DNA from: an uncultured Eubacterium sp.
GTDB lineage: Bacteria; Bacillota_A; Clostridia; Lachnospirales; Lachnospiraceae
DNA: 18,270 nt
Reading direction: 5' to 3'
Assembly (NCBI GenBank): GCA_948560485.1
Contig: CAOXUF010000008.1
Span: 5,637 to 23,906 of the forward strand
Shown here: positions 1-16,475 of the stretch, one piece after another
How the letters are laid out: each line of letters starts with the position of its first letter
How positions within the stretch are numbered: position 1 is the first letter of the stretch
Position numbers and translations under genes: made by a program
Notes under the pieces: generated by a model
The model's input: only the letters and a program-made list of their open reading frames with translations
Databases searched by the model: none
Told to the model about the DNA's origin: nothing

Positions 1-1293
1 GTAAGTCCAGTTGAAAGTAATAGAGATGTACAGATAAGTTCAGTTGCAAGTAATAAAGATGTACAGGCAAGTCCAGTTGCAAATAATAAAGATGTAGTTT
101 CCAGTATGCCAGATGAAAAGAAAAGTGATGACATAGATGATGATACTAATAAAGATGAATATCCTTTAAAAAGGGACAAGAAACCTAGTTTTGCTGATGA
201 CAGGAAAGTAATTTCATTTGAAGAGTATAAAAGGCTTCGTGCTAATGGGGTAAAAGTTGATTATACACATTATAAGGTAGAATATAAGTCACATGAAGAG
301 TATGAAGAGCGTGTGAGGCTTTTGTATGAAGACCATATGAAGCTTAATGCTGAAAGACATAGACAAGAGCTTTCTCAAGCAGTAGAGCAGCCAATCGATA
401 CTGGGGTAGTCAAACATGATATTGATGTACCAGATATAAAGGCAAGTTCAGATGAAGATTTTGGCGATGATTATGCTTCAGATGAAGATTATGGTGATTA
501 TTCTTTAGAAGAAGATAGAGATAGTGCTTCTTCAGATGATAATGAGAAAGAGAACTTAGGTGACTACTCCTCAGATGATGATTATGGTGATTATTCCGCA
601 GATGACGATGAAGATTTTGGAGATTATGATTCAGACGATGATGATTATGGAGATGGTTATTTCTCAGATTCAGATGATAAAGATTATTCTTCAGAAGAAG
701 ATGTAAGTAATGATTATTCTAATAAAGAAGATTCATTAGATGTGTCAGATGAAGAAAAAGTTAATGATTTAGATGATAATACTGAAGAAGATGTAAGTGA
801 TGATGATTACTCCTCAGATGATGAAGATTATGGAGATTATGCTTCAGACGATGATGGTTATGGAGATGGTTATTTCTCAGATTCAGATGATGAAGATAAT
901 TATGGAGATGATGATTACTTTTCAGATGACGAGGAGTATGGTGATGATTATGGAGATTCTTCCTTAGATGATGAAGAAGATTATGGAGATTATGATGTTT
1001 CAGAAGAAGATTCTCCCTCAGATGATAGTGATGTTTCTTCAGATAATGATAAGGGTGAGGACTTAGGAGAACAATGTTCTTCAGATGAAGGTGGTGATTC
1101 CTCAGATGAGAATGATTCCTCTAATGATGTGGATAGTGATTTAGGTGATGAATATTCTTCAGACGATAGTGAAAGTTTTGAAGATGAGTATTTGTCAGAT
1201 GATGAAGATTTAAGCGATGAAGACTCTGGTATTGAAGATGATTATGGTGATGGGTATGCTTCAGATGATGAAGACTTTGGAGATAATTATTAA
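1..1293 (+). CDS. Acidic Asp/Ser/Tyr/Gly-rich repeat protein, 5' end outside window
   Basis: The frame is open from base 1, so the ATG at 106 is probably internal and the true start lies upstream; 430 residues are visible. Residues 2-34 are three 11-residue repeats (SPVESNRDVQI, SSVASNKDVQA, SPVANNKDVVS). About 100 charged, probably helical residues follow, with a KRLRANGVKVDYTHYKVEY-like stretch. The last ~290 residues are low complexity, built from words such as SSDDEDYGDY, YGDGYFSDSDD and EEYGDDYGD, so the protein is extremely acidic. I see no signal peptide, membrane segment or LPXTG sorting motif in the visible part, and only one Cys. It precedes a small membrane peptide and a secreted lysozyme, so a role in conjugation or at the cell surface is possible but inferred. 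Sdr-type SD-repeat adhesins are superficially similar but carry LPXTG anchors. Asp runs could bind cations or mimic DNA; nothing here decides. I do not recognise the family. Confidence 0.8.
   Translation, partial: VSPVESNRDVQISSVASNKDVQASPVANNKDVVSSMPDEKKSDDIDDDTNKDEYPLKRDKKPSFADDRKVISFEEYKRLRANGVKVDYTHYKVEYKSHEEYEERVRLLYEDHMKLNAERHRQELSQAVEQPIDTGVVKHDIDVPDIKASSDEDFGDDYASDEDYGDYSLEEDRDSASSDDNEKENLGDYSSDDDYGDYSADDDEDFGDYDSDDDDYGDGYFSDSDDKDYSSEEDVSNDYSNKEDSLDVSDEEKVNDLDDNTEEDVSDDDYSSDDEDYGDYASDDDGYGDGYFSDSDDEDNYGDDDYFSDDEEYGDDYGDSSLDDEEDYGDYDVSEEDSPSDDSDVSSDNDKGEDLGEQCSSDEGGDSSDENDSSNDVDSDLGDEYSSDDSESFEDEYLSDDEDLSDEDSGIEDDYGDGYASDDEDFGDNY
4..102 (+). repeat. Three 33-bp in-frame tandem repeats
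   Basis: Three consecutive 33-nt units (4-36, 37-69, 70-102) each begin with an AGTYCAGTTG-like stretch and contain AATARAGATGTA. They encode 11-residue repeats of the form S-x-V-x-x-N-(K/R)-D-V. The series probably continues to the left of the window. Such a repeat can change copy number by slippage. Confidence 0.85.
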
Positions 1294-1334
1294 AATTGAG
1301 TTGTATTCAGTACAGCGACAGTTAATAAAAAGTT

Positions 1335-1370
1335 AAGGTGTTAAGTATTCCCAACAATATTTGGGGTATC
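1335..1370 (+). repeat. 36-bp intergenic repeat, copy 1
   Basis: This 36-bp segment matches 2963-2998 at 30 of 36 positions by eye. Both copies start AAGGT, share TAAGTATT, and end AATATTTGGGGTATC. Each lies in the gap after a gene and before the ribosome binding site of the next (1455 and 3028). It is a long form of the GGGGTAT motif. Confidence 0.75.
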
Positions 1371-1454
1371 AATAGATTTGCATAGAAAAGGGATTGATTT
1401 CATTACAGAGTTCGTCAGGTATTTACTAAGAATAAAAGTTAGGAGGAAGGTATC

Positions 1455-1574
1455 ATGAATAAATTATTTGATATTTGGTGTAATTGGGCTTACTGGATAC
1501 TAGAGGGCAACAAGAAGCAAAAAACAATAGGGATTTCACTGCTGGTAACAATGATAATTCTTACTTTATATTAG
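1455..1574 (+). CDS. Small single-pass membrane protein, 39 aa
   Basis: A short reading frame with a strong ribosome binding site (AGGAGGAAGG at 1441-1450, 4 nt before the ATG). It encodes MNKLFDIWCNWAYWILEGNK followed by QKKTIG-like basic residues and a hydrophobic tail ending VTMIILTLY. That is an amphipathic Trp-rich N-terminus, a basic hinge and a short C-terminal membrane segment. It ends 13 nt before the lysozyme gene, so the two are probably co-transcribed. A conjugation-channel accessory peptide is a possibility from position only. I recognise no family. It could also act as a translational leader for the lysozyme gene. Confidence 0.65.
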   Translation: MNKLFDIWCNWAYWILEGNKKQKTIGISLLVTMIILTLY

Positions 1575-1587
1575 GTGGTGGTATGAT

Positions 1588-2940
1588 ATGCGTAAAAGAT
1601 TTGCAGTAGTAATATTATTCTTTGTTATGAGTATTTGTTATGTTAATACTGTATTTGCCACAGCAATAGGGATTCCTATTCCAGGAGTTTCCGATGCAAT
1701 TAATGAGATGATAAAAAAACATGAAAATTTTATCAATAAGCTGAATGAATTTTTAGGGTATGAGCCATCCAATACAGAGATACATAACTGGAGTTTAGCA
1801 ATTGCCACTTTAAGGGCAGATGGTTTTAGCGATGCAGCGATTGCAGGCATTTTAGGAAATGTCAAGGTGGAGGGAGGCACAAAGCAGTTTGCGATAGAAG
1901 GATATAGCGGAAAGAAAACAACAGATGACAAGGATTATACCGAGTTTGAACTTGGTAAGTCCTATGATTATGGCGATGTAGAACCTTCCTTATATACTTC
2001 CCCAAAGACAGGAAAATCAATGGGCGGAGAAGGGCATGGTTTAGTCCAGTGGAGTTTTGGGAGGGCAAGTAACCTTACAAGATTTGCAGAGAGTAGTAAG
2101 TTTGGTTATGTAACAGTTACGCATTGGCATAAAAGGTATGATGGCGATATGGAACAGCATACGTGTAAGATTCCTGATATGGCTGGTCAGGTATGTTTTA
2201 TGGTTGAAGAGTTGAATACAGATTATACCAATGTAAAAGAGCAAATCAAAGATTTAGATAGTGCTTGGTATGCAGCAAAGTTTTTCCATGATGGATATGA
2301 AAAATCAGGTACAGATACGCTCAGGGAAAGACAGACCGCCGCAAATGAAGCCCTGCCTTTGGTTGAGGCATGTACGGCTGTTGTTTCAGTTTCTGAAGAA
2401 AATAAGGATGTTGAGCAGAAAGTTGTTGATAATTTAACATCCAAGCAAATATGGCACGAAGATGAATTTGCCAATTTTAGCAGTTTAGTTGAAAAGTCAT
2501 TATTTTTTCCAACCAGAGATGACCTTAGCCAAGAAAATTTAAAAGGGGTTGTAGATTGGAAAAATAATATTGAGTATGAAAGCGAAGATAATGTGATAAA
2601 GTATATCAGGGTATTTGTTATGCTGTTTGGTATCCTTTTCCTTGTATGGATAGTGCTGATTTACCTTAGTTACTGGTTTGACAGAATCAATAATTTTCTT
2701 GATATTGATATGCTCCCAATTATTACAGCAGGAAGGTTAAGAGTTTCACCAGAGGAGCATGAATGTACATTTAACCCTAAGAGTTACAGCAAAGGACAAG
2801 CTCAGACAGTCAACCATAGAACAATTTTGTTGATATGTATGGCAGGTGTATTTTTTGCAGTTTTGGTTATTTCAGGATACATATATACATTATTAAGTTA
2901 TTTAGTTAGAAAAATGCTTTCTATAGTAGGGACTGCATAA
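1588..2940 (+). CDS. Secreted, membrane-anchored phage-tail-type lysozyme
   Basis: A 450-residue peptidoglycan hydrolase. Residues 1-25 form a signal peptide or N-terminal anchor (basic MRKR, hydrophobic core, VFA). Residues ~65-260 look like the phage tail lysozyme family (Phage_lysozyme2): IAGILGNVKVEGG places a likely catalytic Glu at 95, and GEGHGLVQWSFGRASNL (148-164) is the family's second signature. After a linker come two hydrophobic segments at about 339-363 and 411-434, so the C-terminus is membrane-embedded. Gram-positive conjugation systems use such enzymes to open the wall for the transfer channel. The two-segment C-terminal membrane part is not usual for a simple lysin and suggests attachment to a membrane complex. 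The ATG at 1588 is chosen because it follows AGGTGGTGG and starts the signal peptide. The domain call is firm; the conjugation role is inference. Confidence 0.85.
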   Translation: MRKRFAVVILFFVMSICYVNTVFATAIGIPIPGVSDAINEMIKKHENFINKLNEFLGYEPSNTEIHNWSLAIATLRADGFSDAAIAGILGNVKVEGGTKQFAIEGYSGKKTTDDKDYTEFELGKSYDYGDVEPSLYTSPKTGKSMGGEGHGLVQWSFGRASNLTRFAESSKFGYVTVTHWHKRYDGDMEQHTCKIPDMAGQVCFMVEELNTDYTNVKEQIKDLDSAWYAAKFFHDGYEKSGTDTLRERQTAANEALPLVEACTAVVSVSEENKDVEQKVVDNLTSKQIWHEDEFANFSSLVEKSLFFPTRDDLSQENLKGVVDWKNNIEYESEDNVIKYIRVFVMLFGILFLVWIVLIYLSYWFDRINNFLDIDMLPIITAGRLRVSPEEHECTFNPKSYSKGQAQTVNHRTILLICMAGVFFAVLVISGYIYTLLSYLVRKMLSIVGTA

Positions 2941-2962: not shown

Positions 2963-2998
2963 AAGGTACTAAGTATTTTCAGTAATATTTGGGGTATC
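2963..2998 (+). repeat. 36-bp intergenic repeat, copy 2
   Basis: Second copy of the repeat at 1335-1370 (30 of 36 matches by eye), ending in the GGGGTATC motif. It sits 22 nt after the lysozyme stop codon and just ahead of the ribosome binding site of the gene at 3028. Confidence 0.75.
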
Positions 2999-3405: not shown

Positions 3406-3840
3406 GAAAAAGTTGAGAAATAAGATTTTAGAAGGTTTTGATATTGGTGATACATGGTTTGTATCAAGTGATTTTGGGGTATCAATTTTCCTTTAAAAGT
3501 ATGATATTTATACATAGAAAATAGATATTTTATATATAAGCAGGAGGCTCTCTTAAAAGTGTAGAGAGTCTCCTGTTTTTTGCCCATATAGATTACTGAG
3601 TTTTTTCTTGATATTGCTCTAAAATGGGTTAGAACTTGTATCCTTATAACCATTGGGGTATGCATCTTTCAGAAATTTATAAGATAAATCTCCATAAAGC
3701 AAGTTCCATAGAAAGTATGATAATAGTGCTTGAATTTACAGGCTTTTAGAGGTAACATACGATAATTATACAAAGCCTGCAAATAAAAAGTCAAGGCTAA
3801 ATTAAAGAACATTGAAAAATTTATACAGGTTGAAAATTAG
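3406..3840 (+). other. Noncoding gap between unknown gene and IS110
   Basis: No reading frame here has a usable ribosome binding site. It holds GGGGTAT motifs at 3476 and 3655, a GATAC/GTATC inverted repeat at about 3449-3466, a strong terminator (3541-3581), and an inverted repeat CAGGCTTT (3739-3746) / AAAGCCTG (3772-3779) with a 25-nt spacer. The last has no T run, so it is not an obvious terminator. Nothing else is evident. Confidence 0.6.
3541..3581 (+). terminator. Rho-independent terminator
   Basis: A 13-bp stem (3541-3553 pairing with 3563-3575, one G-U pair) with a 9-nt loop, followed by six T residues (3576-3581). It ends the left-hand gene block (lysozyme and following gene). Confidence 0.9.
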
Positions 3841-3891
3841 GTATCAAAAAAAGACCACCACACCAGTGCTGATCTAAAATGATAGTGATAA

Positions 3892-5100
3892 TTAGGTTTC
3901 CGAAAGAGATGCAAGATATTCTTTCACTCGTCCGTAGTAGATTCTTAGAAACTTGTTAGCACCTGCGGTCATATAGACATAGTAAGGCTTACCTTGAGCA
4001 CGCTTCTTGTCTAAGAACTGATATACAGGGTCATCTTGTGGATGTGTTTTAATTAAGACATCCATTACCTGAAATAATGTTTTTCTAAGGTCAGAAGAAC
4101 CTCGTTTTGAAGTTGGAACACTCTTTTGTTCATAGGTTCCGGATTCATTAACACCGGGGTCTACACCGGCAAAAGCAGTAATAGCACCTTTGTGAGCGAA
4201 GCGGGAAACATCACCAATCTCAGCCATCAGCTGGGGACCAAGTGAAGGACCAACGCCCTTCATTGCCATAACAATGGGATATTCAGGAAGTTTGGATGCA
4301 GTTTCATTCATAAGTATACGTAGTGACTCAACGGTTGCAGAGGCGCTATTAAGCTGGTCTACGGCTTGTTTGATAATAAGCTTTGTAATGTCATCCTTAG
4401 GGAGTACAGGAACAAGCTCCTTTGCTTTTCCATAGATTTCCTCAGCCTTTGACTGGCTGAAGTTGTACTTTTTGCGTTTGCACCAGTTTTGGTAATGCTC
4501 TAAAAAAGCATTTTGAGACATTTTACGGACACAGTCCACATGCCAGTATGTAGATGCAAAATCAACCCATTTCTGGCTGCCGTCACTGCGGGCAGGACTG
4601 TCAAAGTAAGCATTAATACCAGGATAGGTTTGGTCAAGGATGCCAATAAGGTTATTCTTCATAGCCGTCTTATGTTTCATGTAAAAGCCAAACTGACGGT
4701 TCATGGTTTTAAGCTGATTACGTAATTCGTCCATAACACTATACTGTCTGAGATTATGCCACTTGTCAAGTGCATATCGGGCAATCTTAACGGCATCAGC
4801 TTTATCAGATTTGACTTTACGAAGGGAATCATTGTCGAAATCCTTGATAAGCTTGGGGTTAATGGCACTGACGAAAAGGTTTGCTTCCGAAAGTTGGTGG
4901 GCAAGGACTTCATAATAACGTCCTGTATGCTCCATTACGATTCTGGATTCACCTTCAACAGAATTGATGAGTTCTACAAGTGAATTGATATCACTGGTTG
5001 TGTGTTTGATTTCAAAAGGTGCAGAAACAATCTCACCAAAAGGGCGCATAATTGCAACCATGCTTTTACCTTTAGAAACATCGATACCTACTGCGTTCAT
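3892..5100 (-). CDS. IS110-family transposase (DEDD recombinase)
   Basis: A 402-residue RNA-guided DNA recombinase. The N-terminal RuvC-like domain (about 1-160) has GIDVSKGK (Asp7), VMEHTGRYY (Glu57) and KSDKADA (Asp99, Asp102), the DEDD acidic set. The C-terminal transposase domain has MKGVGPSLGPQL (about 280-291), ITAFAGVDPG and SKRGSSDLRKTLF (331-343), which carries the serine expected of this family. Length is normal and there is no frameshift or stop, so it is probably intact. The ATG at 5100 is chosen because AAGGAG ends 11 nt before it. An upstream in-frame GTG at 5112 overlaps that ribosome binding site. It is the only transposase in the window. Confidence 0.95.
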   Translation of the reverse strand: MNAVGIDVSKGKSMVAIMRPFGEIVSAPFEIKHTTSDINSLVELINSVEGESRIVMEHTGRYYEVLAHQLSEANLFVSAINPKLIKDFDNDSLRKVKSDKADAVKIARYALDKWHNLRQYSVMDELRNQLKTMNRQFGFYMKHKTAMKNNLIGILDQTYPGINAYFDSPARSDGSQKWVDFASTYWHVDCVRKMSQNAFLEHYQNWCKRKKYNFSQSKAEEIYGKAKELVPVLPKDDITKLIIKQAVDQLNSASATVESLRILMNETASKLPEYPIVMAMKGVGPSLGPQLMAEIGDVSRFAHKGAITAFAGVDPGVNESGTYEQKSVPTSKRGSSDLRKTLFQVMDVLIKTHPQDDPVYQFLDKKRAQGKPYYVYMTAGANKFLRIYYGRVKEYLASLSET

Positions 5101-5112
5101 AAAATTTGTCAC

Positions 5113-5340
5113 TCCTTAAGAATTATTGCAATGGTTAAAAACCAGTTTTACTCATTGCCTATTCAATCTACTGTGGTGTGACACGAATGCGCCTATGGCG
5201 ATTCAACCTGCATAAAACGAACGCTGCGAATGAGGAGCTGGTTATCAGTCTTTGTTACGGACGCAAAGTCCAAGAAAGGAAGCCGACATACCTATTGCTC
5301 CATCATTATACAGCTTAAGCAACAAGATGGATAATTCCTT
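5113..5340 (-). ncRNA. Candidate IS110 bridge-RNA region
   Basis: In the IS110 group the long noncoding stretch upstream of the transposase is transcribed into a bridge RNA whose two loops pair with target and donor DNA. Here that stretch is GC-richer than its surroundings and contains compact inverted repeats. CGCC-TAT-GGCG lies at about 5192-5202 and GGAC-GCAAA-GTCC at about 5260-5272, and other stems are likely. The RNA would run on the minus strand toward the transposase. Exact ends and loop assignments need comparison with other copies. If the element were of the IS1111 type, the bridge RNA would lie downstream of the transposase instead. Confidence 0.45.
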
Positions 5341-5396
5341 ACTGGCTGTAAGGGATATTACCCATAAATATATTGTAGTAGAAGGGAGAGATTGGC

Positions 5397-5627: not shown

Positions 5628-5915
5628 GTTATCAAATGAGATAGGTATATTAAGATATGGTATTAAAAGCATTCATTTTGGGGTATTCAATAATTTTTAG
5701 TATTAAAATATAAGAAAATACTAATTTTCAGATTTTAGTTAATATGGTTCATCAGTATTGTATTTAAAATTTTTATTGTGCAATCAATTAGGATTTATAA
5801 GTACAATATTGATGTTATATTGTAAGTATAACATTCGCTATTTATGGAGTTATTTCCAAGATAGCTGAAAGTATCAAGAAATAGTGAATCAGTTTATAGG
5901 AAAGGAGCGAGTTTT
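5628..5915 (+). other. Noncoding gap with motif, hairpin and dyad
   Basis: Contains GGGGTAT at 5680 and, 11 nt after it, a weak terminator-like hairpin (TTAGTATT 5697-5704 / AATACTAA 5717-5724, then TTTT). A small dyad GTTATA-TTGTAAG-TATAAC region lies at 5814-5832 and could be an operator for the downstream pair of genes. I see no convincing -35/-10 pair. Confidence 0.4.
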
Positions 5916-6365: not shown

Positions 6366-7155
6366 AGAGATGAGAAACCTTAAATTCTCAAGTAGTAAGG
6401 ATGTAGTTACAGTAGTTGCTGAAGCCACTAACTATGGTTTTATTTTTTATTATTTTATTGGCGGTCGCCCTTTTAATCTGCCAAATGGTTTAACAATGGC
6501 ATCCAGACAAGGTATTATTGACCATATAAAGAAGAATTTTAGACTTGATAATAAAGTAAAAGTCATCTATGAGGATTATTGTTGCCAGATATGCGTACAA
6601 GAAAAGAAGATAACTTTGGATTTGAAAGCTGTTCCACGTAGTGAGAAGTACACCGACATTATAGTTATGGCTAATTCTGTACAAATCTTTAAAGGCAAGG
6701 AGAAGATAACTTTTAATAGTATTCGTGGTATGCAAGATTTAGCACTCAGTAAGTTAAGTGAGTGTGAAAAGCAGAAGGGTATGAGCCAGAGTAATATTTC
6801 AAAACCTGTTACAATGCAAAAGAAAGCTGATACAATTCAACAAAAGCCAGATGTATTAAAGAAAGAAGCATCTAAGCCAAATGGGGTACTTGTTTCTTCT
6901 TTTAAAGAAGGATATGCAGAAGGTGTTGCTCAGAGGCAAAAGCAGAATAAGACTACTGAAGCTATTACCAAGTTCTCAAAGAATGATACAAAGAAGCCAA
7001 ATACTCTCTATCGTAATCTTGGTATTTCAGACGAAGCAGCCGCAAGGGGAAATATGAGTCCAACCAATTACATACTTGAAGGTTTATTTGGCAAGACACC
7101 TGAAGGCGTTAAACCAGCAAAGAATATGACGGAGATAATACAAAGGAAAGGCTGA
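6352..7155 (+). CDS. Unknown protein, second of a paralogous pair, with C-terminal extension, 267 aa
   Basis: The ATG at 6352 is preferred over the one at 6334 because AAGAGGTG lies 7 nt before it. Residues 1-~145 repeat the domain of the preceding gene (GRPFNLPNGLTMASRQGIID, EKKITLDLKAVPRSEKYTDI, IRGMQDLALSKLSECEK). A Lys/Gln-rich linker of ~50 residues follows (KPVTMQKKADTIQQKPD), then a C-terminal part with SFKEGYAEGVAQRQKQN and GISDEAAARGNMSPTNYILE-GLFG. There is no membrane segment. The linker plus tail suggests the shared domain is joined to a second binding function. The shared frame is followed by an AGGGTAC motif and a strong terminator. Function unknown. Confidence 0.8.
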   Translation: MLVAKEMRNLKFSSSKDVVTVVAEATNYGFIFYYFIGGRPFNLPNGLTMASRQGIIDHIKKNFRLDNKVKVIYEDYCCQICVQEKKITLDLKAVPRSEKYTDIIVMANSVQIFKGKEKITFNSIRGMQDLALSKLSECEKQKGMSQSNISKPVTMQKKADTIQQKPDVLKKEASKPNGVLVSSFKEGYAEGVAQRQKQNKTTEAITKFSKNDTKKPNTLYRNLGISDEAAARGNMSPTNYILEGLFGKTPEGVKPAKNMTEIIQRKG

Positions 7156-7227: not shown

Positions 7228-7266
7228 ATTAGGAGTCTGTACAAAGCAGGACTCCTAATTTTTTTC
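7228..7266 (+). terminator. Rho-independent terminator after the paralogous pair
   Basis: ATTAGGAGTC (7228-7237) pairs with GACTCCTAAT (7250-7259), a perfect 10-bp stem with a 12-nt loop, followed by a T run. The 3' arm includes the stop codon of the convergent XRE gene. There is no A run on the left side, so it should act only on plus-strand transcripts. Confidence 0.88.
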
Positions 7267-7581
7267 CAGTAAAGTTAAGAATCCCAAGAAGAGTTTTTTA
7301 TTATTGCGATTAAGATTGCGGTAGGAAGTAATGATATCTTTTTCTTCTTTGTTGTATTCCTGTTCTGGCTGCCGATATGGGGTACAGTCGGAGAAAAACT
7401 CACCAAGAGTAATATGTAAACCAGCACAGATACGTTCTAAAGTAGTGATAGTAGGCTGATTGTTCTTCTGGAATAGTGAGTTGAGGGAGGAATAGGGTAT
7501 GCCTGATTCTTTTGCGAGTTTATATAAAGACCAGCCACGTTCCTCCATGAGTTCCTTAATTTTTTGTAAGACTTCGTTCAT
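7255..7581 (-). CDS. XRE-family helix-turn-helix transcriptional regulator, 108 aa
   Basis: A Cro/C1-type DNA-binding protein. Residues ~5-60 form the HTH_3 domain: IKELMEERGWSLYKLAKESG, IPYSSLNSLFQKNNQPTITT, LERICAGLHITLGEFF. The C-terminal ~45 residues (EEKDIITSYRNLNRNNKKLF) resemble the short helical tail of small XRE repressors. The ribosome binding site on the minus strand is GAAAGAGGTGG. It is the only non-IS gene on the minus strand and is divergent from the lipoprotein gene, with 215 nt between them. By position it probably regulates itself and/or the lipoprotein gene. CGTTATA (7604-7610) and TATAACG (7680-7686) are candidate operator halves. Confidence 0.93.
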   Translation of the reverse strand: MNEVLQKIKELMEERGWSLYKLAKESGIPYSSLNSLFQKNNQPTITTLERICAGLHITLGEFFSDCTPYRQPEQEYNKEEKDIITSYRNLNRNNKKLFLGFLTLLEKN

Positions 7582-7796: not shown

Positions 7797-9104
7797 ATGA
7801 AGAGAAGGATATTAATTGGGGTATTCCTTGCAACAATGGTAGCGAGTTTAGCTGGCTGTGGTACAAGTAAAGAAACCAAGACAACAAGTACTGAGCCGAC
7901 AACAGTAAAGGAGGAGGAGTCAACAACACAGGTAGTAAAAGATACCGATTACTATATAAACACAGCTTCAGATGAAGAATTGCTATCTAAGAAGCCAGAG
8001 CCGATACAATCGGTGCTTGTAAGTAAGAGGTCTAATAATTCAGAGTATTATATCTGTAATACGAGAATAAAGAGTTTTGCCAGCACAGATAGGTTAGACG
8101 TGGGGAGAGATTATGTATATGATATATTTGTTTTCCCGACAAGTATAGATGGGCATGATATTAAGGGGTTGGACTTTGTAGGAGGCGAGGAAGGTGTAAT
8201 TGAGTGGGTAAATAATAATGATAATTATGAGTATGGAGAAGTCAACGCTCAAGTTGTAGTTATTCCTAGTTCTTTTGAATATTTGTGTACTTCAATATTA
8301 GCAGGGGGTACTACTGGAAACTCTACAGTAAAATTTGAAGAAAAGGGTTCACTTATTCCTGCTAATTTTAATATTAAGAGGATTGTGTTACCAGATACGA
8401 TTAAAAGAATTACTCATTATGCTCAGTTCCCAAATCTTACTAAGATAAACTTACCAGCAAGTTTAGAGGATATAGATGAAAAGGCTTTTAAACTTAGTCC
8501 TAATCTGACCGCCATAGTAGACAAAGATTCATACGCCGAAACATTCTGTAAGGAGCATAACATCAAATTTATATACAGAGAAGATGAAGGAGAGGGTACA
8601 TCTAAGTTGATAGAAGATTCATTACCTGCTTGGAAAAGTGCATATATAGAATATTTCAATAAGTTAGATAATTGTAATTTTTATTCATTTGATTTAGTAG
8701 ATATTAACCTAGATGGTATACCTGAGATTTGCACTGACTACCAACAAGGAGGACAAGGTTTAGTTTATATCAATAAGAATAATGAAGTAAAAGAAATATA
8801 TGATGCAGGATATTGTTCTTATGGTGATAAAGACATAAAAACTCAAAGGTCAGCAATGGAGTATATATCAACCAATATTTATAGATTTGATAAAAAGTCA
8901 CATGATTACATTAATGTTTTTTTAGGAGATTGTTCTATAGATATTAATGGCAATAAAAAGTATAAAATAGGTAATATTGAGTGTTCAGAAGAGGAGTATA
9001 ATTTAAAGGTTGAAAGTAATACTTCAAGCAGTAATCATATAGATGTAGATACTACAAAGTATAAGAAGGATACTTTGATTCAAAAGATAACAGATTATAA
9101 GTGA
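7797..9104 (+). CDS. Lipoprotein with LRR-like segment and Asp-rich calcium-loop-like segment, 435 aa
   Basis: Exported and lipid-anchored: a basic MKRR start, a hydrophobic core, and the lipobox SLAGC with the lipidated Cys at 21. A Thr/Lys/Glu-rich linker (22-50) follows. Residues ~190-260 (IVLPDTIKRITHYAQFPNLT, KINLPASLEDIDEKAF, SYAETFCKEHNIKFIY) look like the BspA-type leucine-rich repeats common on gut Firmicute surfaces. Residues 299-310 (DLVDINLDGIPE) resemble a DxNxDG calcium loop as in dockerin/EF-hand segments, in the C-terminal domain that begins PAWKSAYIEYFNKL. It acts outside the cell on the membrane surface; the ligand is unknown. It has its own promoter, is divergent from an XRE gene, and ends at the hairpin at 9269. 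It is probably accessory cargo. Confidence 0.88.
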   Translation: MKRRILIGVFLATMVASLAGCGTSKETKTTSTEPTTVKEEESTTQVVKDTDYYINTASDEELLSKKPEPIQSVLVSKRSNNSEYYICNTRIKSFASTDRLDVGRDYVYDIFVFPTSIDGHDIKGLDFVGGEEGVIEWVNNNDNYEYGEVNAQVVVIPSSFEYLCTSILAGGTTGNSTVKFEEKGSLIPANFNIKRIVLPDTIKRITHYAQFPNLTKINLPASLEDIDEKAFKLSPNLTAIVDKDSYAETFCKEHNIKFIYREDEGEGTSKLIEDSLPAWKSAYIEYFNKLDNCNFYSFDLVDINLDGIPEICTDYQQGGQGLVYINKNNEVKEIYDAGYCSYGDKDIKTQRSAMEYISTNIYRFDKKSHDYINVFLGDCSIDINGNKKYKIGNIECSEEEYNLKVESNTSSSNHIDVDTTKYKKDTLIQKITDYK

Positions 9105-9426
9105 AAAAGTCTTTAGCTAAGGATTTAAGGAAAAAGTAAAGTTTGTGTACATTAAAGATTAACTTGCAAAAACAAGAGGAAGTCGAGGACTGGCAAGTGA
9201 GTTATAAAGGTATGGATACTTTTGCAGTATAGTCTAACATATAATAAAAGTGAATATATGGTTCGTCAAAAGCACTCATTTGGGGTATTCCTTTATGAGT
9301 GTTTTCTTTTACCAATATATTACTATTTTAATTGATATATAAGTAAATCAGTTAAGAATAATAGTAGTATGCTTCTAAAAGAGACAATTAGAGGAAGTAT
9401 TAAGATAAAAGAAGGAGATGGGTTCT
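9105..9426 (+). other. Noncoding gap with possible structured RNA
   Basis: Besides the terminator at 9269 it holds an imperfect nested hairpin: ACTTGC (9162-9167) pairs with GCAAGT (9193-9198), enclosing AGTC-GAG-GACT (9181-9191). This could be a 3'-UTR structure or a small RNA. No clear promoter for the next gene is seen between 9310 and 9426. Confidence 0.35.
9269..9310 (+). terminator. Terminator hairpin with the GGGGTAT motif in its loop
   Basis: AAAGCACTCAT (9269-9279) pairs with ATGAGTGTTTT (9295-9305), 11 bp with one G-U pair, followed by CTTTT. The 15-nt loop (9280-9294) carries GGGGTAT. It ends the lipoprotein transcript. Confidence 0.8.
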
Positions 9427-10581
9427 ATGAGTTCTTTAGATTATATTGATTTTAGTACATTAATATTCCGCAAAGATTTGGGGGAGTATAACCATTTTAG
9501 GGAATGGTGGGGTAAAAGCTCTGAGTTAAGGAAGAAATTTATCCACCCAGAAGTAGTTGTTAAGGATGGGGTAAGATATATGAATTACAAAGGTAAGCTG
9601 TTGAAGGAATGTGAGGTAGCAAAAGCCTTTGAGAAATCTTTTAAGATTACGAAGTCAAGATTGGAAAGAGGGTATGATATTAAAAAGATTACAAAACAGG
9701 ATGGCTTCTATTATTTAGGCTGTTTTAAGGAAGATGAAGAAAATTGTGAGTTTGCGTATAATGATTTCTATAATGGGGTATCCTCTGAGCCTGTGAAAAG
9801 AATTGTGATGTCGGAAGGGAACACAATCATTGATATGTATGAGAATGGCTCTATTGTACAAGATTTACAGACAGACAGCACATATTATTATTCCAATGAA
9901 GATATAGAGTTTTTTCAGATACTTAGAGAGTTTCCTTTTGACTGGGAGACTGCAGCCATGAGAAATGAGGGGATATTAAAAAGAAAAAAATATATGTATG
10001 ATATTATTGATGGGTTAGAAGAAAATCGTATGTCTGATAATTTCAGGACAGTTGTATATAGCCAGAAGATATTAAACCAGTTTAAGTTAGGATATACAGT
10101 TAGTGAGAAGAAGCTGGATACAGGCAGATGTGATTTTCGAGTTTGTATTTGGTATTTTGGGAATGGGTGTGGTAAAAGACATTATACTGATGGAAGACAT
10201 TGTGATAATGAGGTGGAGGCGGTATGCGAAGCGTATAAGATAGAGCAGTCTGCCACAGGTTCTGACAGTCAGTATCTATTTAATCCAATATATTTCCATA
10301 GAAACCAAAAACATCTATTAGAACAGTACATCAAAGGTGAGTTAACAGAGCTTGGGTTAATAAGGGAAACTTTAGCTGATACAGCAAAAAATCCTTTACT
10401 TATACTCCGTTATAACCTGATAGATGCCTGTAGAAAGTATTGTGTTAAGATTTCTCCATTCAGTTTAAATGAAGAAGGCTATATGGTAAATTTTAATGGA
10501 ACAAGGTATTCTGATTTGGCTAAGAAGTATGTTGAAGGAGAATTATCAAGGGAAGAGATTGAAAATCAGTGTATTTTATAG
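9427..10581 (+). CDS. Unknown soluble protein, 384 aa
   Basis: The ATG at 9427 is chosen because GAAGGAG lies 9 nt upstream; the ATG at 9418 directly abuts that site. No signal peptide or membrane segment is visible. The N-terminal part (MSSLDYIDFSTLIFRKDLGE, HPEVVVKDGVRYMNYKGKLL) is followed by a Tyr/Asp-rich middle. A Cys/His-containing block at about 225-265 (RCDFRVCIWYFGNGCGKRHY, DGRHCDNEVEAVCEAY) could bind metal or form a Cys-rich patch. The C-terminal third is helical (LLEQYIKGELTELGLIRETL) and ends YVEGELSREEIENQ. It carries three GGGGTA motifs in ~270 nt (9509, 9568, 9775). I do not recognise the family. It is followed by an AGGGTAT motif, and the next genes have their own promoter candidates. 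Confidence 0.8.
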   Translation: MSSLDYIDFSTLIFRKDLGEYNHFREWWGKSSELRKKFIHPEVVVKDGVRYMNYKGKLLKECEVAKAFEKSFKITKSRLERGYDIKKITKQDGFYYLGCFKEDEENCEFAYNDFYNGVSSEPVKRIVMSEGNTIIDMYENGSIVQDLQTDSTYYYSNEDIEFFQILREFPFDWETAAMRNEGILKRKKYMYDIIDGLEENRMSDNFRTVVYSQKILNQFKLGYTVSEKKLDTGRCDFRVCIWYFGNGCGKRHYTDGRHCDNEVEAVCEAYKIEQSATGSDSQYLFNPIYFHRNQKHLLEQYIKGELTELGLIRETLADTAKNPLLILRYNLIDACRKYCVKISPFSLNEEGYMVNFNGTRYSDLAKKYVEGELSREEIENQCIL

Positions 10582-10984: not shown

Positions 10985-11621
10985 TTATATACTTTGTAAG
11001 ATGAAAAATAACTGCCTCACAGTCAAATTAGATACTGAGTTGCCTCTCCATGCAAGGAGCATTAATGCTTTAGCTAAAATTGATACTGGCTGTGGTAAAA
11101 CGAGTATCCCTTTAGCCAGTAAGAAATTTATGATAGATGAGGATACTTTGTTTCAGTTTAAGAAGAGTGCTATTGATAATGGTTTATCAGCAAGATTAAG
11201 TTTTGGGGTGTCTGATAATTATAGTGTCAAATACAGAGAGAAAGAGTTATTTGATAATGGAGATTTTTTAAAGTGTAATGCTGTAAATTTTCAGCATAAT
11301 GTACCTTATTTTTCTATAAATGATTATATTTTATCTGATGTTGGAAGTGTAATGGTAAGTTATAATAGAGAGAATAATATACTAATAGGTATGGATATTT
11401 TATCTCAGCTTGATTTTCATTGTGGATATAGCAAGGTTTTAAATAATTACATATTTATTGGGGTATTGAGGACACAAGAAGATAAGTCAGATTATTATAA
11501 AGCCTTAGAGGAGTATTTTGGGGTTTTAAGCAATATGAATGAGAATTTTTTAAATAGTGAAGCTGTTAAAAATGGGGTGGCAGGATTTTTTGATTGGCTA
11601 AAAAATAAGCATAAGAATTAA
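10974..11621 (+). CDS. Retropepsin-like aspartic protease family protein, 215 aa
   Basis: ALAKIDTGCGKTSIPLA carries the catalytic D-T-G triad (Asp37) in the usual hydrophobic-hydrophobic-DTG setting, followed by the Ser/Thr-Ile element. About 100 residues later NILIGMDILSQLDFHCG (135-151) matches the LIGMDhL signature near the end of retropepsin-type domains. Such proteins carry one DTG per chain and work as dimers. The total is longer than the ~100-residue core; the extra C-terminal ~60 residues (YYKALEEYFGVLSNMNENFL, GFFDWLKNKHKN) are helical. No signal peptide is seen, so it is cytoplasmic. It is coupled to the 83-residue gene upstream and ended by a terminator at 11633. Substrate unknown. 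The family call rests on two motifs. Confidence 0.78.
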   Translation: MKNNYILCKMKNNCLTVKLDTELPLHARSINALAKIDTGCGKTSIPLASKKFMIDEDTLFQFKKSAIDNGLSARLSFGVSDNYSVKYREKELFDNGDFLKCNAVNFQHNVPYFSINDYILSDVGSVMVSYNRENNILIGMDILSQLDFHCGYSKVLNNYIFIGVLRTQEDKSDYYKALEEYFGVLSNMNENFLNSEAVKNGVAGFFDWLKNKHKN

Positions 11622-11632
11622 GTTGTATTTTG

Positions 11633-11659
11633 GGGTACACTGAGTGTACTCTCTTTTTT
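11633..11659 (+). terminator. Terminator built from the GGGGTA motif
   Basis: GGGTACA pairs with TGTACTC (7 bp, one G-U pair) around the loop CTGAG, then TCTTTTTT. The GGGGTAC motif supplies the 5' arm. The stem begins only 12 nt after the stop of the protease-like gene. Confidence 0.75.
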
Positions 11660-12018
11660 CTCAGGTACTTTTTATTTTATTAAGACTGATAGTGTATAGG
11701 GCTTATTTCCTGCGTTTTCTTTGATTTTTCCCAATATATCAAAAATAGGCTGTTTGATTTATAAATAAAGTGTATGACAGTGCCTGTTTTGTATGGAAGA
11801 TTTTTGGTAAGATAGCCTTTCATGGTATTTTGAGTTTTTATAGAAAATATTGAGTTTTTAGTACTGGCTTACAGTTCTTTATCCAGTTACAAATGGGGTA
11901 TGTCGATTTGAGTTGTAGTATTGATTTAAGTATCTAACCTATTGTAAGATAAACTGGAATTGATTTATTGATTTGATATATTTTTACTTGTTTTAACAAA
12001 TATAATTTTGTTGTGATA
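11660..12018 (+). other. AT-rich noncoding stretch, left part
   Basis: No supported gene. It includes GGGGTAT at 11895 and many TTTGAT/TTTGAG words that prefigure the repeat array. TCAGGTACTTTTT occurs at 11661-11673 and again at 12047-12059, an exact 13-bp direct repeat 386 bp apart; the second copy sits at the -10 of the promoter at 12019. Confidence 0.5.
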
Positions 12019-12081: not shown

Positions 12082-12562
12082 AAATCGTTTCAATAGAAAC
12101 TTGTAATCACTTTGATACATGTTATAAATCGTTTTAATGTAAACTGATGGTTGGTTTAACTTGTGCAACTATCATCTTGATGTATGCAACCGTTGATTTA
12201 AGAAAACCAACTATCATGTTGACTTATGCAAGCATTGATTTAAGAAAATCAACTATCATGTTGACTTATGCAAGCATCGATTTAAGAAAACCAACTATCA
12301 TGTTGACTTATGCAAGCATCGATTTAAGAAAATCAACCATCGTTTCAACTTGTGCAATTAGTGTTTTGATGTATGTAACTACCATTTTGACTAGTGCAAC
12401 TGTCGATTGAATATAACCAACTATCAATTTGAGAAAATCAACTTTTATTTTAATATGAACAAGCATTGATTCAATATTCAATAGTAGTGTCTTGATAATA
12501 TATAATCGATTTGAGAAAACCAACTATTGATTTAACATGAACTGCAAATTGTTATAATAGAG
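12082..12562. repeat. Degenerate 21-bp tandem repeat array, about 22 units
   Basis: Unit starts fall every 21 bp, for example 12166, 12187, 12208, 12229, 12250, 12271, 12292, 12313, 12334, 12355, 12376, 12397, 12418, 12439 and 12460, with one short 19-nt unit at 12502 and decayed units on both sides. The core (12208-12333) is a near-perfect 42-bp dimer repeated three times. Units begin CAAC or CAAG and carry TTGA or TTTA about 11 nt in; some form a CAAC-N6-GTTG dyad. The 21-bp spacing puts every unit on the same DNA face, as in plasmid iterons or partition centromeres. Both strands happen to be open, encoding heptads such as TIMLTYASIDLRK, but there is no ribosome binding site. Confidence 0.88.
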
Positions 12563-13086: not shown

Positions 13087-13554
13087 ATTCTAAAGTTCTT
13101 CTTAAAGTCATTTGATTTGAGTTTGCTTTTCCAAAGTAATATGAATTTATTTATCCATATTTCAGATGAATTGATATGTAAAATTACTTGTTTTGATATT
13201 TTTGTTAATCGTTATGAGTAGTATTTTTGTTGCTGTAAGTTGAGATAGCAGCATTTGATAAAGAATAAAAATATGTAGTTTATAAGGAATACATTTACAT
13301 AGAAGAAACCCTCTTTTTAAATGCGATATAAAGCACAACCACCAAACAATCTATAAAAGATTTGTATAGTTTAGCTACTGGTATCTTTTTGAAATCAGAG
13401 TTATAGTACAGCAACGTCAAAGAATTCGTATATTGTGTAAATCTAGTCGGAACTTTGTATCAGGCTCATACAGGCAGTTTACCTGTTTGATGGCAGATAC
13501 TTTGGGGTGCTTGAAAATAAGGCGATACAGGGGCTACAGCGGTGTCATAGAAAA

Positions 13555-13660
13555 AGTCGAATAATATATATTAATCGACCTATGGCTTAAAATCGGGCTT
13601 TCTGGGATAGCAGTATCAAAACAATCAATAAATACGACCTTTTTGGCGAGATTATACGAC
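13555..13660. promoter_or_regulatory. Cluster of four CGAC boxes upstream of the recombinase gene
   Basis: Four copies of a box of the form (A/T)TTA(T/A)CGAC(C/T)T(T/A)T lie within 106 bp of each other. One is on the minus strand (CGAC complement at 13556-13559). Three are on the plus strand, with CGAC at 13576-13579, 13635-13638 and 13657-13660. The first two face each other as a 24-bp near-palindrome (13556-13579) with an all-A/T centre of 14 bp. The last two are direct repeats 22 bp apart and end 5 nt before the ribosome binding site. The layout suits core and accessory binding sites of the adjacent tyrosine recombinase, or an autoregulatory operator. Confidence 0.6.
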
Positions 13661-13680
13661 TTTTGGAAAGGAGGCTTTTT

Positions 13681-14265
13681 ATGAATAAGAAATGTGTAGC
13701 ATTGACAGAAGAACAGTATAAAGAAAGTATTTCTCTGATTCGCAGTGGTTTTAAGCTGGATGGGGTATCCATAAGACCAAACCCACGTATTGCAGCGGTG
13801 TTAGTTTTACAGGCATGTCTTGGTCTGCGGTTAGGAGATACATTACAGCTTAAGATGAACAGCTTTATCAAGGATGGAAACCGATGGAGGCTGGATATCA
13901 AAGAGCAGAAGACAAAGAAGATAAGGTCATTTACTGTTCCTGTTGAAGTATACAGTTTTGTCCAGCAGTATGCTTATGACTTTCATATTGAGAAAAATGC
14001 CAGATTATTTGCAGTTGGCGAGCGTCAGGTAGAGCGTTACCTGAATTTTGTGTTTAACAAGATGGAACTTCCATTGAGAAATTATGGCTCACACAGTTAT
14101 AGAAAATATTTCAGTGTAAAAGTGTATATTGAGAGTGATTACAATATTGAATTAGTAAGGATTCTACTCCAACATTCCAATGTTTCAGTGACACAGCGTT
14201 ATTTGAATATTGGCTCAAAGCAGATTGAGGAGGCACTGGCTTTAACAGCAGGAAGTTTAATGTAA
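13681..14265 (+). CDS. Small tyrosine recombinase, catalytic domain only, 194 aa
   Basis: The full catalytic set is present: Arg50 (ACLGLRLGD), Lys at 77-79 (KEQKTKK), His138 and Arg141 (GSHSYRKYF), His165 (LLQHSNVS) and nucleophile Tyr174 (TQRYLNIG). It is only 194 residues long and lacks the N-terminal core-binding (SAM-like) domain of XerC/D and phage integrases, as do the FimB/FimE inversion-type enzymes. The ATG at 13681 follows GGAAAGGAGG; a TTG at 13663 lies within or before that site and is rejected. The gene probably heads an operon with the next three genes. It is different in kind from the integrase at 16759, so it may serve plasmid resolution, inversion or gene shuffling. Site: probably the CGAC boxes just upstream, by inference. 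Confidence 0.9.
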   Translation: MNKKCVALTEEQYKESISLIRSGFKLDGVSIRPNPRIAAVLVLQACLGLRLGDTLQLKMNSFIKDGNRWRLDIKEQKTKKIRSFTVPVEVYSFVQQYAYDFHIEKNARLFAVGERQVERYLNFVFNKMELPLRNYGSHSYRKYFSVKVYIESDYNIELVRILLQHSNVSVTQRYLNIGSKQIEEALALTAGSLM

Positions 14266-14307
14266 GATGTGTGATAAAGTGTTCCAGAATAAAGAAGGGA
14301 GAAAGTT

Positions 14308-15072
14308 ATGATTCAATTAACAGAATGGTATTTTTCAAAGCATAAGCTGAAAGGGACAAGTGAGATGTGTTATATCGCTCATGGCTTTGTATCAGGGCAT
14401 TCAGAGTTAAAAGATGGTACACATATTGATACAAGCATGATTGAAAAGATAGAGATGGATAAGATAAATAACCGTCTGCTGATGTACACCCATTCAAAAA
14501 ATGAGTATGAGTTACTGTTTGCTGATATATACTTGGAGGAGTTTAAAAAGATACAAGGTTATTTACATCAGTTTAACATTCCTGCCTCATCTTTGAGTGA
14601 ATGTAAGAAATTACAGGAAGAATGTAAGGCAGAGTTGATTGCAAAAGCAGACAGGATATTAAAAAATAATGAGTTGTATCTGATGATAATTGGGGTATTT
14701 GTAAGAAAGGCGTTTTTTAAGAATAGTGATGGAAAAGTGCGTGAGATTCCTGTAAGACCTCATATAGGAATGTTTCAGAACAGTTATCTTGTTACAGACT
14801 GGGAAAAGCATGAGGTCGATTTTCGATATTTTGATGGTATCCGAAGCATCCGACCATACCACTGGTCAGATGGGTTAGAAGCTATCCAGATAGAAAATGC
14901 TGGAAATACAGATATTCTTTTTTTCAGTGGTGATAACCTGCTCTGCAAGGCTGGAGAAGTAACATTGATTGAAAATACACAATTTAGAGGAGAAGGATTG
15001 TTTTCCCCTGATGTGGTGAATGGAAAGTGCATATGTTCTGATGAGATAGAAAAATTACTTAAAAATAAGTAA
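14308..15072 (+). CDS. Unknown soluble protein, 254 aa
   Basis: Start ATG 14308 with GAAGGGAGA upstream, 42 nt after the recombinase gene and probably in its operon. The N-terminal part (MIQLTEWYFSKHKLKGTSEM, CYIAHGFVSGHSELKDGTHI, DTSMIEKIEMDKINNRLLMY) reads as a beta-rich module. A helical segment (~70-120) follows, then a domain with ELYLMIIGVFVRKAFFKN, VRPHIGMFQNSYLVTDWEKH and YFDGIRSIRPYHWSDGLEAI. GFVSGHSELKDGTHIDTS resembles small conserved proteins often found near Firmicute mobile elements, but I cannot name the family. There is no membrane segment and no nucleotide-binding motif. Confidence 0.8.
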   Translation: MIQLTEWYFSKHKLKGTSEMCYIAHGFVSGHSELKDGTHIDTSMIEKIEMDKINNRLLMYTHSKNEYELLFADIYLEEFKKIQGYLHQFNIPASSLSECKKLQEECKAELIAKADRILKNNELYLMIIGVFVRKAFFKNSDGKVREIPVRPHIGMFQNSYLVTDWEKHEVDFRYFDGIRSIRPYHWSDGLEAIQIENAGNTDILFFSGDNLLCKAGEVTLIENTQFRGEGLFSPDVVNGKCICSDEIEKLLKNK

Positions 15073-15119
15073 CAGAATAGAAGTATTATTAAGAGTTTGG
15101 CAAGGAGGATATAAGATTT

Positions 15120-15914
15120 ATGATTTATGTTACTGGTGATTGTCATGGCGATTTTCACCGTTTTACAAAAAAGCAGAGAAATAAATTACCATTTCAACTG
15201 ACAGAAAGTGATTATGTAGTAGTTTGTGGTGATTTTGGGTTATTGTGGGCGGAAGATGAAACTTTTGGTTATAACCTCAAGTGGCTTTCAAGACTGCCAT
15301 TTAAAATTTTATGGGTACAAGGCAACCATGAAAATTACCATATGATTGCTAAGTATCCATTAGAGGAGTGGAATGGCGGTAAGGTACGGCACATTGTAAA
15401 AGATAAGGTTATTCTTTTAGAGAGAGGGCAGGTATTTACAATAGAGGGCAAGACATTTTTTACATTCGGAGGTGCCAGTTCACATGATATCAGTGGAGGT
15501 ATTCTTGATAGAAATTCCCCTACATATTTGCAGGATTACAAGAGAGTTTCACGAAGCGGACAGCCATTTAGGGTATTAAATATATCTTGGTGGAGGGAAG
15601 AGCTACCAACAAAAGAAGAGTTGGAAGAAGGCAGGATGAATTTGGAACAAATGGGGTATCACATTGACTATGTGATTACTCATTGTGCATCCAACCGTAT
15701 ACAAGATGCTTTAGAACGCTATCATATGGGGATAGGTTTTAATACAGGATGGTATAAACAGGATATTCTGACAAATTTCTTTGAGGAATTAGAAGACAGG
15801 CTGCAATATAAGAAATGGTTTTGTGGACATTATCATGAGGATTTTCATATAGATGATAAGCATACTATACTTTATTATAAGATAGCAGCACTTGAGGAAG
15901 AGGTGGTTGAATGA
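15120..15914 (+). CDS. Calcineurin-like metallophosphoesterase, 264 aa
   Basis: All five metal-ligand blocks are present: GDCHGD (Asp7, His9), VVCGDFG (Asp38), VQGNHENY (Asn69, His70), VITHCAS (His188) and CGHYHED (His237, His239). The enzyme should use two divalent metals to hydrolyse phosphomonoesters or phosphodiesters in the cytoplasm. The natural substrate may be protein, nucleotide or nucleic acid; this is not set by the motifs. AAGGAGGA precedes the ATG by about 11 nt. It overlaps the following small gene by 4 nt (ATGA), so the two are translationally coupled. Such stand-alone phosphoesterases are frequent on phages and mobile elements. Confidence 0.95.
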   Translation: MIYVTGDCHGDFHRFTKKQRNKLPFQLTESDYVVVCGDFGLLWAEDETFGYNLKWLSRLPFKILWVQGNHENYHMIAKYPLEEWNGGKVRHIVKDKVILLERGQVFTIEGKTFFTFGGASSHDISGGILDRNSPTYLQDYKRVSRSGQPFRVLNISWWREELPTKEELEEGRMNLEQMGYHIDYVITHCASNRIQDALERYHMGIGFNTGWYKQDILTNFFEELEDRLQYKKWFCGHYHEDFHIDDKHTILYYKIAALEEEVVE

Positions 15915-16123
15915 ATTTGCTAAATGAAAAGTCAAGAAATCCCAAGAGAATAAGACCAATGCTTGAGAAATTGGAGGAAGCATGGAATTTATATCCAGAT
16001 ATGAGATTAGGACAGCTCATAGCAGTTTGTGTTGGTAGAGATAGTGTTTGTGGTATTGAAGATGACAAAATGCTTGAAAGAATACAGGGTTATATTGATA
16101 AGATGAAAAGTGCTGGTTTGTAA
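15911..16123 (+). CDS. Small conserved-looking protein coupled to the phosphoesterase, 70 aa
   Basis: The start codon overlaps the stop of the phosphoesterase gene (ATGA), a standard coupling arrangement. The product has NPKRIRPMLEKLEEAWNLYP followed by DMRLGQLIAVCVGRD. The pattern 'RI..ML..LE.AW...PD.RLGQLI' is typical of short helical proteins of unknown function found beside phage and mobile-element genes and broadly recalls the YihD-like type. It ends with DDKMLERIQGYIDKMK, a further helix. It probably partners or regulates the phosphoesterase, by coupling only. Confidence 0.82.
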   Translation: MNLLNEKSRNPKRIRPMLEKLEEAWNLYPDMRLGQLIAVCVGRDSVCGIEDDKMLERIQGYIDKMKSAGL

Positions 16124-16475
16124 TAAGGTACAACATAGTCTGTATGCCATGTATAGCACAGTGCATTCGTTGTTTAAATTGGGAAGATAGATTTTGTAAT
16201 GGTAAGTCTTATAGGTCTTTGATGATTTAAGAGTTGTTTTTGTGGTTGTATACTGAGCTGTAAATGGGGTATTATTTCCTCCACTGAAATTCACTTAAAA
16301 ATGAAGCATATCTGATAAAGATGCGTATTGTTTTGGAGAAGATTGATTATGAAATAAGGTATATAATGTTAATTTTCTGAGTAAGATAGTTTTTACCTAT
16401 AAATCAAATTAAATGTGTGGTATTAGCTGATATAGATTATGTTTAGTAGCTTTTTTTGAAAGGAGGTTACTAATC
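16124..16475 (+). other. Noncoding gap before xis
   Basis: No supported gene. It contains the last GGGGTAT motif of the window (16266). TATAAT occurs at 16362-16367 but lacks a good -35 at 16-18 bp. The stretch separates the motif-bearing backbone from the motif-free xis-int cassette, so it may be a module border. Confidence 0.45.

Follow-up and report, generated by a model that had tools for sequence, protein, structure and literature searches.

We analysed an 18,270-nucleotide stretch of DNA from an uncultured Eubacterium sp. of the Lachnospiraceae (contig CAOXUF010000008.1 of assembly GCA_948560485.1, positions 5,637 to 23,906), here called the window (WIN). It holds an element whose left part lies outside the window, with genes for a small tyrosine recombinase, an adjoining 254-amino-acid protein, an XRE/Cro-type regulator, an IS110 transposase, an xis-like open reading frame (ORF) and a larger integrase (Table 1). 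Our subject is the short word GGGGTA, which recurs along the plus strand of this element. The word is exact, nearly one-way, dialect-bearing, confined to islands and tied to one recombinase clade; the islands that carry it, in gut bacteria, are integrative elements whose integrase modules and cargo vary from one to the next. Relatives are denoted by genome (G-numbers) or locus (L-numbers), and paired counts are given as sense/antisense.

Exact counting gave 22 GGGGTA and 14 GGGGTAT on the plus strand of the window and neither on the minus strand, which reproduces the figures of the initial annotation (no TACCCC). All 14 GGGGTAT copies are TGGGGTAT, one base longer than the word first described, and T precedes the core in 21 of the 22 GGGGTA. 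Markov models of order 0, 1, 2 and 3 predict 4.3, 2.9, 4.1 and 6.8 GGGGTA and 1.4, 0.9, 1.5 and 2.8 GGGGTAT on this strand; for TGGGGTAT the order-3 expectation is 0.99 (Poisson p 4e-12). Higher-order predictions come near the observed numbers (18.8 GGGGTA at order 4; 9.8 and 13.7 GGGGTAT at orders 4 and 5) because such models already contain most of the word. TACCCC is expected 0.4–0.8 times in the window (orders 0–3), so that its absence by itself is weakly informative, and the initial annotation was right to call the missing complement only partly a strong point. Among all 8-mers of the window, TGGGGTAT scored highest (z 13.1, order 3), followed by TCAGATGA (z 12.7). In 24 comparison windows of 20 kb, taken from host stretches and from loci outside the recombinase clade, the best 8-mer reached at most z 8.5; in the first 20 kb of each related island it reached 14.6 (G001), 28.0 (G005), 23.0 (G004), 21.9 (G003), 11.1 (G002) and 6.4 (G116). 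The G116 7-mer GGGGTAA scored z 8.6 (comparison windows at most 7.9), and z 11.9 over 33 kb. Both G002 and G116 exceed the 24 comparison windows at the 7-mer level, and at the 6-mer level neither (z 5.1 and 5.0) rises above the best of them (5.5). Intervals between copies are near random (coefficient of variation 0.69–1.00), and Rfam returned no match on the window at gathering scores. The IS110 copy and the xis–integrase region are free of the motif, as had been noted; at the density of 1.5 per kb found elsewhere, the two gaps have p values of 0.08 and 0.05.

Table 1 Copies of the GGGGTA word and genes of the window.
Feature	Coordinates	Strand	Remark
TGGGGTA	246..252	+	in acidic-repeat gene
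TGGGGTA	402..408	+	in acidic-repeat gene
TGGGGTAT	1362..1369	+	intergenic
TGGGGTAT	2990..2997	+	directly ahead of probable start of 121-aa ORF
TGGGGTAT	3475..3482	+	intergenic
TGGGGTAT	3654..3661	+	intergenic
TGGGGTAT	5679..5686	+	intergenic
TGGGGTA	6882..6888	+	coding
TGGGGTA	7378..7384	+	within minus-strand XRE gene; G001 copy at same place; codons ACC CCA in both (frame by eye)
TGGGGTAT	7817..7824	+	coding
GGGGTA	8305..8310	+	sole copy without preceding T
TGGGGTAT	9281..9288	+	loop of terminator-like hairpin (by eye)
TGGGGTA	9508..9514	+	coding
TGGGGTA	9567..9573	+	coding
TGGGGTAT	9774..9781	+	coding
TGGGGTAT	11459..11466	+	coding
TGGGGTA	11631..11637	+	10-nt gap from stop codon to GGGGTA; 5′ arm of terminator-like hairpin (by eye)
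TGGGGTAT	11894..11901	+	intergenic; retained in G001
TGGGGTAT	13761..13768	+	within recombinase gene; retained in G001
TGGGGTAT	14691..14698	+	within 254-aa gene; retained in G001
TGGGGTAT	15652..15659	+	within metallophosphoesterase-like gene
TGGGGTAT	16265..16272	+	final copy, between small ORF and xis
Tyrosine recombinase, ~194 aa, catalytic domain only	13681..14265	+	R, K, HxxR, H, Y present (alignment, by eye)
254-aa protein, no recognised fold	14308..15072	+	adjoins recombinase; common to 6/7 large islands compared
XRE/Cro-type regulator gene	7255..7581	-	antisense to motif strand
IS110 transposase gene	3892..5112	-	motif-free
xis-like ORF, 62 aa	16476..16664	+	motif-free; named from position and size; no Pfam match
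Integrase, 420 aa	16747..18009	+	motif-free

The 254-amino-acid gene led to seven genome loci, L001 to L007, with GGGGTA counts of 9/0, 13/0, 34/3, 7/1, 35/0, 3/0 and 31/3, respectively. An array is present at all four of these loci that have the recombinase (L001, L003, L005 and L007); among those that lack it, L002 has an array, L004 a weak one and L006 none. The arrays stop at the island edges. In G005, 332–354 kb contains 51/6 copies and the further 78 kb read contains 8/4; in G004 the figures are 61/0 for 0–32 kb and 5/1 for the remaining 24 kb, and in G003 45/3 for 0–20 kb and 5/7 for 80 kb. G001 has 20 copies in 20 kb, all on the recombinase strand, as compared with 13 in 100 kb that are spread over the two strands. 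The G003 and G004 islands begin at contig ends and may extend further. No switch of polarity was seen inside G005 or G001, both of which were read past both edges. Five host genomes, counted over both strands and with their islands, contain 220–617 copies of GGGGTAT; in every one of them the reversed control is commoner. Together, the edges and the hosts, none of which shows the density genome-wide, support the initial view that the signal belongs to the element.

While the core is common, its flanks differ from island to island, and the islands that carry it span 29–47% GC. The consensus is TGGGGTAT in the window and G001, TCAGGGGTACT in G005 (A ahead of the core in 51/51 copies), TCAGGGGTAY in G003, GGGGTACTT in G004, GGGGTAA in G116 (31/44 copies) and GGGGTATC in G002 (8/13 copies). 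Within 30 bases on each side, we found no conserved positions common to the islands beyond about −3 to +8. The best one-mismatch words show no comparable excess in six of seven islands, the exception being G116 (TGGGTA, 38 vs 21.9). Over 30 kb of G005 we found seven antisense copies, one of them in the flank; two of the seven resemble the G005 dialect by eye.

The initial claim that this is not a codon effect was borne out by synonymous-codon shuffles (300 shuffles of plus-strand ORFs of at least 120 amino acids, genes containing N dropped). Coding copies outnumbered all 300 shuffles in five of six islands, with 13 observed vs 3.6 shuffled in the window, 8 vs 1.8 in G001, 23 vs 5.0 in G005, 34 vs 8.4 in G004 and 22 vs 5.3 in G003; G002 showed no excess (2 vs 1.0). 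A codon effect was rejected for these five, despite the bias of the window towards frame 0 (GGG GTA; 9 of the 13 copies in plus-strand ORFs), and the excess persists under third-order Markov and codon-aware models alike. In G005, G004 and G003, copies occupy every reading frame, and 34/51, 37/61 and 24/45 of them, respectively, fall within ORFs of 90 amino acids or more. Outside the tested ORFs, the window, G001, G005, G004, G003 and G002 have 9, 11, 26, 26, 22 and 11 copies, where the order-3 model expects 2.2–6.4. Antisense copies in genes are slightly above the shuffles in G005 (2 vs 0.5) and G003 (2 vs 0.9). The word is also retained between diverged islands: 17/27 copies persist between G005 and G003 (75% identity; average 6-mer 0.26), where GGGGTA is the best retained of 84 frequent 6-mers (0.64 of 53; median 0.37), and 5/9 and 4/7 copies persist between G005 and G004 (background 0.14) and between G003 and G004 (0.12).

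We then consider the small recombinase. It is a weak match to XerH/XerA-type tyrosine recombinases (PDB 5jjv, E 1e-3; NCBIfam NF040815, E 8e-9, at 35.5 bits vs a curated cut-off of 220), and with its ~194 amino acids it is without most of the N-terminal part of those proteins. Its distribution across genome draws, which overlap and include the centre genomes, is scattered: 11/397 genomes of a family draw, 5/391 of a class draw and 10/299 of a second family draw at E 1e-30, 2/37 genomes of one genus and 1/11 of another at E 1e-40, and 2/398 genomes of the phylum with profile A2 at E 1e-45. From the 120 listed among 362 homologues, 15 were aligned together with six recombinases of the window and the loci. 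The analysed DNA does not include the C. difficile and Sarcina plasmid matches. The motif-bearing loci fall into a single group in a tree built from 23 recombinases (FastTree support 0.888). We counted the motif within 4 kb on each side of the recombinase, contig permitting. The 14 loci inside this clade (113 kb) contain 120 sense copies (36 expected) and 2 antisense copies (~5.4 expected from composition); the nine outside it (64 kb) contain 6 sense (9.6 expected) and 2 antisense. L004 stands outside this count because it has no recombinase match. Around 54 viral-contig relatives (26–47% identity) there is no overall excess (126 sense, 142 expected; 142 antisense), with variation at single loci (L108, 7/3 vs 1.4 expected; L111, 1/8 vs 0.6). 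The top 7-mer at the viral-contig loci is a simple repeat at z 13, all others reaching at most 10, and six out-of-clade loci have no other polar word above ordinary windows.

The loci inside the clade are of two kinds, large islands of ~20–33 kb and compact units. Integrases vary among the large islands, being tyrosine integrases in the window and G005 and large serine ones in G004 and G002 (Pfam). The best-preserved compact units encode a REP_ORF2-G2P replication protein (Pfam, two copies scanned), a resolvase-like protein that falls below the Pfam cut-off, the recombinase and an IS110 transposase, to which that of the window is a distant match (E 4e-17). Such units were seen at L055, L057, L063 and L064 and in relatives (G149, G136, G307), repeated within G149 and G307; the G136 unit adjoins a pretoxin-HINT gene, and toxin-like neighbours elsewhere were judged by eye. 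Of seven large islands compared, six have the recombinase, as do the motif-bearing compact units. A role of the 254-amino-acid protein as universal reader was rejected: a profile search found it neither in the compact units nor in G116, and its homologue at L006 comes without an array.

Several further features accompany these genes. The 254-amino-acid protein has 107 homologues, of which 33 were aligned, and 30 contigs are listed as encoding it in exactly the form found in the window; its AlphaFold model (mean predicted local distance difference test score 90) has no fold match in the PDB below E 0.019, and therefore no function can be read from it. Between the window and G001, the recombinase is 99.5% identical (L001 9374–9955) and the neighbouring 254-amino-acid protein ~81%. 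An acidic Asp/Ser-rich repeat protein is encoded at window positions 106–1293, and TCAGATGA (17/0), which ranks second in strength among polar 8-mers, was attributed to the repeats of its gene after inspection of the Tandem Repeats Finder (TRF) units. A small ORF (12147–12410) contains a tandem 42-base unit at 12166–12341 (TRF, 4.2 copies, 92% matches), and these repeats align to G001 as well. No DNA near-identical to the window was found in plasmids, and in phages there was one match, in the IS110 region: positions 3774–5382 match, at 89%, a human-gut phage record that carries no annotation (MT837272.1). The G001 island (L011) adjoins a gene that by eye is tsf-like (elongation factor Ts), where it may have inserted. 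On inspection by eye, a 684-amino-acid protein of G005 (L015 2983–5037) resembles a diverged adenine methyltransferase of the D12 type (DIFGGSG, DSPY); it has no match in Pfam, PHROGs or NCBIfam.

From these sequence comparisons we tentatively favour the reading that GGGGTA, with its lineage-specific flanks, may be a dispersed oriented recognition word of a Lachnospiraceae-type island family, with the recombinase as candidate reader in a one-way DNA process. An island-encoded protein would recognise the word in one direction, with a probable footprint of ~8–11 bp. The leading candidate for it is the small XerH/XerA-like tyrosine recombinase, because it is the one gene that we found in large islands and compact units alike. 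One-way reading would keep a directional process on island DNA, be it recombination, replication or transfer, in register, and copies would therefore build up wherever genes tolerate them. More doubtful is a bolder form, in which the core and its dialects would be a one-way "watermark" of self that co-evolves with the island's minimal tyrosine recombinase and marks island DNA, or transcripts directly behind stop codons, for processing in one direction. A site of two half-sites for recombination was rejected, there being no second conserved block.

A number of observations weigh against a word read by the recombinase. The islands have no second half-site in common that keeps a constant distance from the word, and alignment breakpoints fall within 30 bp of a motif in 7/34 and 3/14 cases vs 14% and 9% at random. 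Loci were assigned from the tree to the inside or the outside of the clade when the motif counts were already known. The profile comparison covered the compact-unit genes and the 254-amino-acid protein, and within this limited set the recombinase alone closely connects the two kinds of locus. In G002 an array of 13/0 (L002) stands on a 16-kb contig with no recombinase, in a genome without a match at E 1e-30. Retention between the window and G001 (6/8 copies) is not significant at a background of 0.59, GGGGTA ranking 24th of 280 6-mers, and neither G005 nor G003 shares with G116 any of the two copies that could have been retained (0/2 each). Motif and recombinase could merely have a common ancestry.

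The position of the copies relative to genes bears on whether DNA or RNA is read. Twenty-one copies start 4–15 nt past a plus-strand stop codon, where circular shifts predict 2.5 and none of 400 exceeded 7, and nine start 4–15 nt ahead of a start codon vs 2.5 expected (maximum 8); where gaps are short, some may enter both counts. Among 254 copies, 16 lie inside or at most 20 nt upstream of called terminators vs 4.7 expected, a moderate excess in which each terminator class has 8 copies and single shifts reached 8 and 10. Several copies sit between a stop codon and a terminator-like hairpin, and in orthologous genes of G003 and G004 (~40% protein identity) the motif occupies this place in both, with different sequence around it. 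In G116 (L052) and at window positions 11631–11660 (copy at 11632), the motif appears by eye to supply the 5′ arm of a hairpin that resembles a terminator; TACCCC is not formed there because the 3′ arm pairs through G·U. Polarity follows the direction of most genes in the islands read. All this would suit a transcript-level or co-transcriptional signal, in which an island factor (an antiterminator, an RNA-binding protein or an RNA polymerase-associated protein) recognises GGGGUA in the growing transcript or on the non-template strand, so that polarity follows transcription. As the initial DNA-level idea did not predict the clustering behind stop codons, we regard such a role, which the initial annotation left out of account, as a serious rival, if somewhat less likely than the favoured reading. 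The spike, however, comes mainly from G004 (10/21) and is made up of a minority of all copies, and those of G005, G004 and G003 lie largely inside ORFs, in all frames. The orientation is kept inside the minus-strand XRE gene (7379), as the initial annotation had pointed out; this copy, antisense to its own gene and conserved in G001, leans towards DNA, as a single site. Real antisense genes are few; a minus-strand ORF of G116 contains one minus-strand copy, of non-dialect form. Placement directly behind stop codons and the polarity of the motif would also be expected if the small tyrosine recombinase inserted integron-like cassettes in direct orientation, with GGGGTA as their boundaries; the recombinase gene is common to both kinds of locus, and the islands differ in gene content. 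We consider this improbable, given that the breakpoints are not clearly at motifs, that copies within conserved genes are retained in collinear alignments, and that no longer structured site surrounds the core.

The word might, finally, have no present function and simply reflect base composition, codon usage or common descent. The motif strand shows a G skew in the window and in the islands, and both the frame-0 bias of the window and the lack of coding excess in G002 point the same way. Order-3 Markov models and synonymous shuffles nevertheless fall short in five of six islands, an excess is present between genes as well, and retention, exactness and dialects that differ between islands make this reading very unlikely. 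Type III-like restriction enzymes need head-to-head sites, and one-way sites could evade them. The rarity of antisense copies near in-clade recombinases (2/122) agrees with such an anti-restriction orientation, but it would account for the avoidance of one orientation and not for the excess of the other; moreover, antisense copies are not clearly below expectation, and those in G005 and G003 genes are slightly above it. We find this explanation barely credible.

Known systems of short DNA words offer partial parallels, and the defining features of none of those compared are fully shared by the island word. Chi sites are polar, short, exact, lineage-specific words of the host. The island word is likewise polar, short, exact and lineage-specific, but Chi is a host word, and a host-wide Chi or FtsK-orienting polar sequence (KOPS) was rejected on the grounds that GGGGTAT is below its reversed control in 5/5 hosts. 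The initial proposal is partly supported: the signal is element-bound, strongly polar, exact and independent of codons, and a Chi-like, KOPS-like or transfer-orienting action on DNA is a conjecture. A host Chi or KOPS is unlikely because the five hosts searched lack the density. Integron cassette arrays combine a tyrosine recombinase with direct-oriented attC sites behind stop codons. The islands resemble them in having a tyrosine recombinase, direct-oriented sites and placement behind stops, but the word has no attC-like structure, lies inside genes as well, and does not clearly coincide with breakpoints.

In polarity, the closest systems are KOPS and architecture imparting sequences (AIMS), described as short words with a strand bias that give a DNA motor its direction and are tied to a Xer recombinase system (PMC5357621, PMC5993296); the island word, too, is linked to a recombinase. 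These words are host-wide, with one KOPS per 13 kb quoted, whereas the island word averages one per 0.4–1.2 kb and shows no polarity switch towards a dif-like site or terminus in G005 and G001. Pfam recognised no FtsK-like translocase among the island proteins scanned, a subset of the ORFs. In form, the closest are the DNA uptake sequences (DUS) of Neisseriaceae, which are described as having a common core, lineage dialects largely congruent with the reader ComP, and genome-wide copies in genes and near terminators, often as inverted pairs at terminators (PMC3630211). The island word has a short core common to the islands, lineage dialects, high density and copies inside genes and near terminators, as do DUS and uptake signal sequences; unlike DUS, it is confined to islands and nearly one-way and does not have the whole-genome, both-strand distribution. 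Integrative and conjugative elements are reported to have been found through their DUS dialects (PMC7371117). Among the open-licence papers searched, we found none on a mobile element with its own dense polar dialect word, none joining GGGGTAT to a tyrosine recombinase and none joining a GGGGTA motif to Lachnospiraceae. Whole chromosomes are known to carry dense oriented or dispersed words (Chi, KOPS and DUS), each of which led to a DNA-processing machine. If our preferred reading of an oriented recognition word is true, a word that ends at the island edge, its core kept and its dialects shifting, would point to a hitherto unrecognised, island-borne machine with a candidate reader, and such islands could be found from word counts alone.

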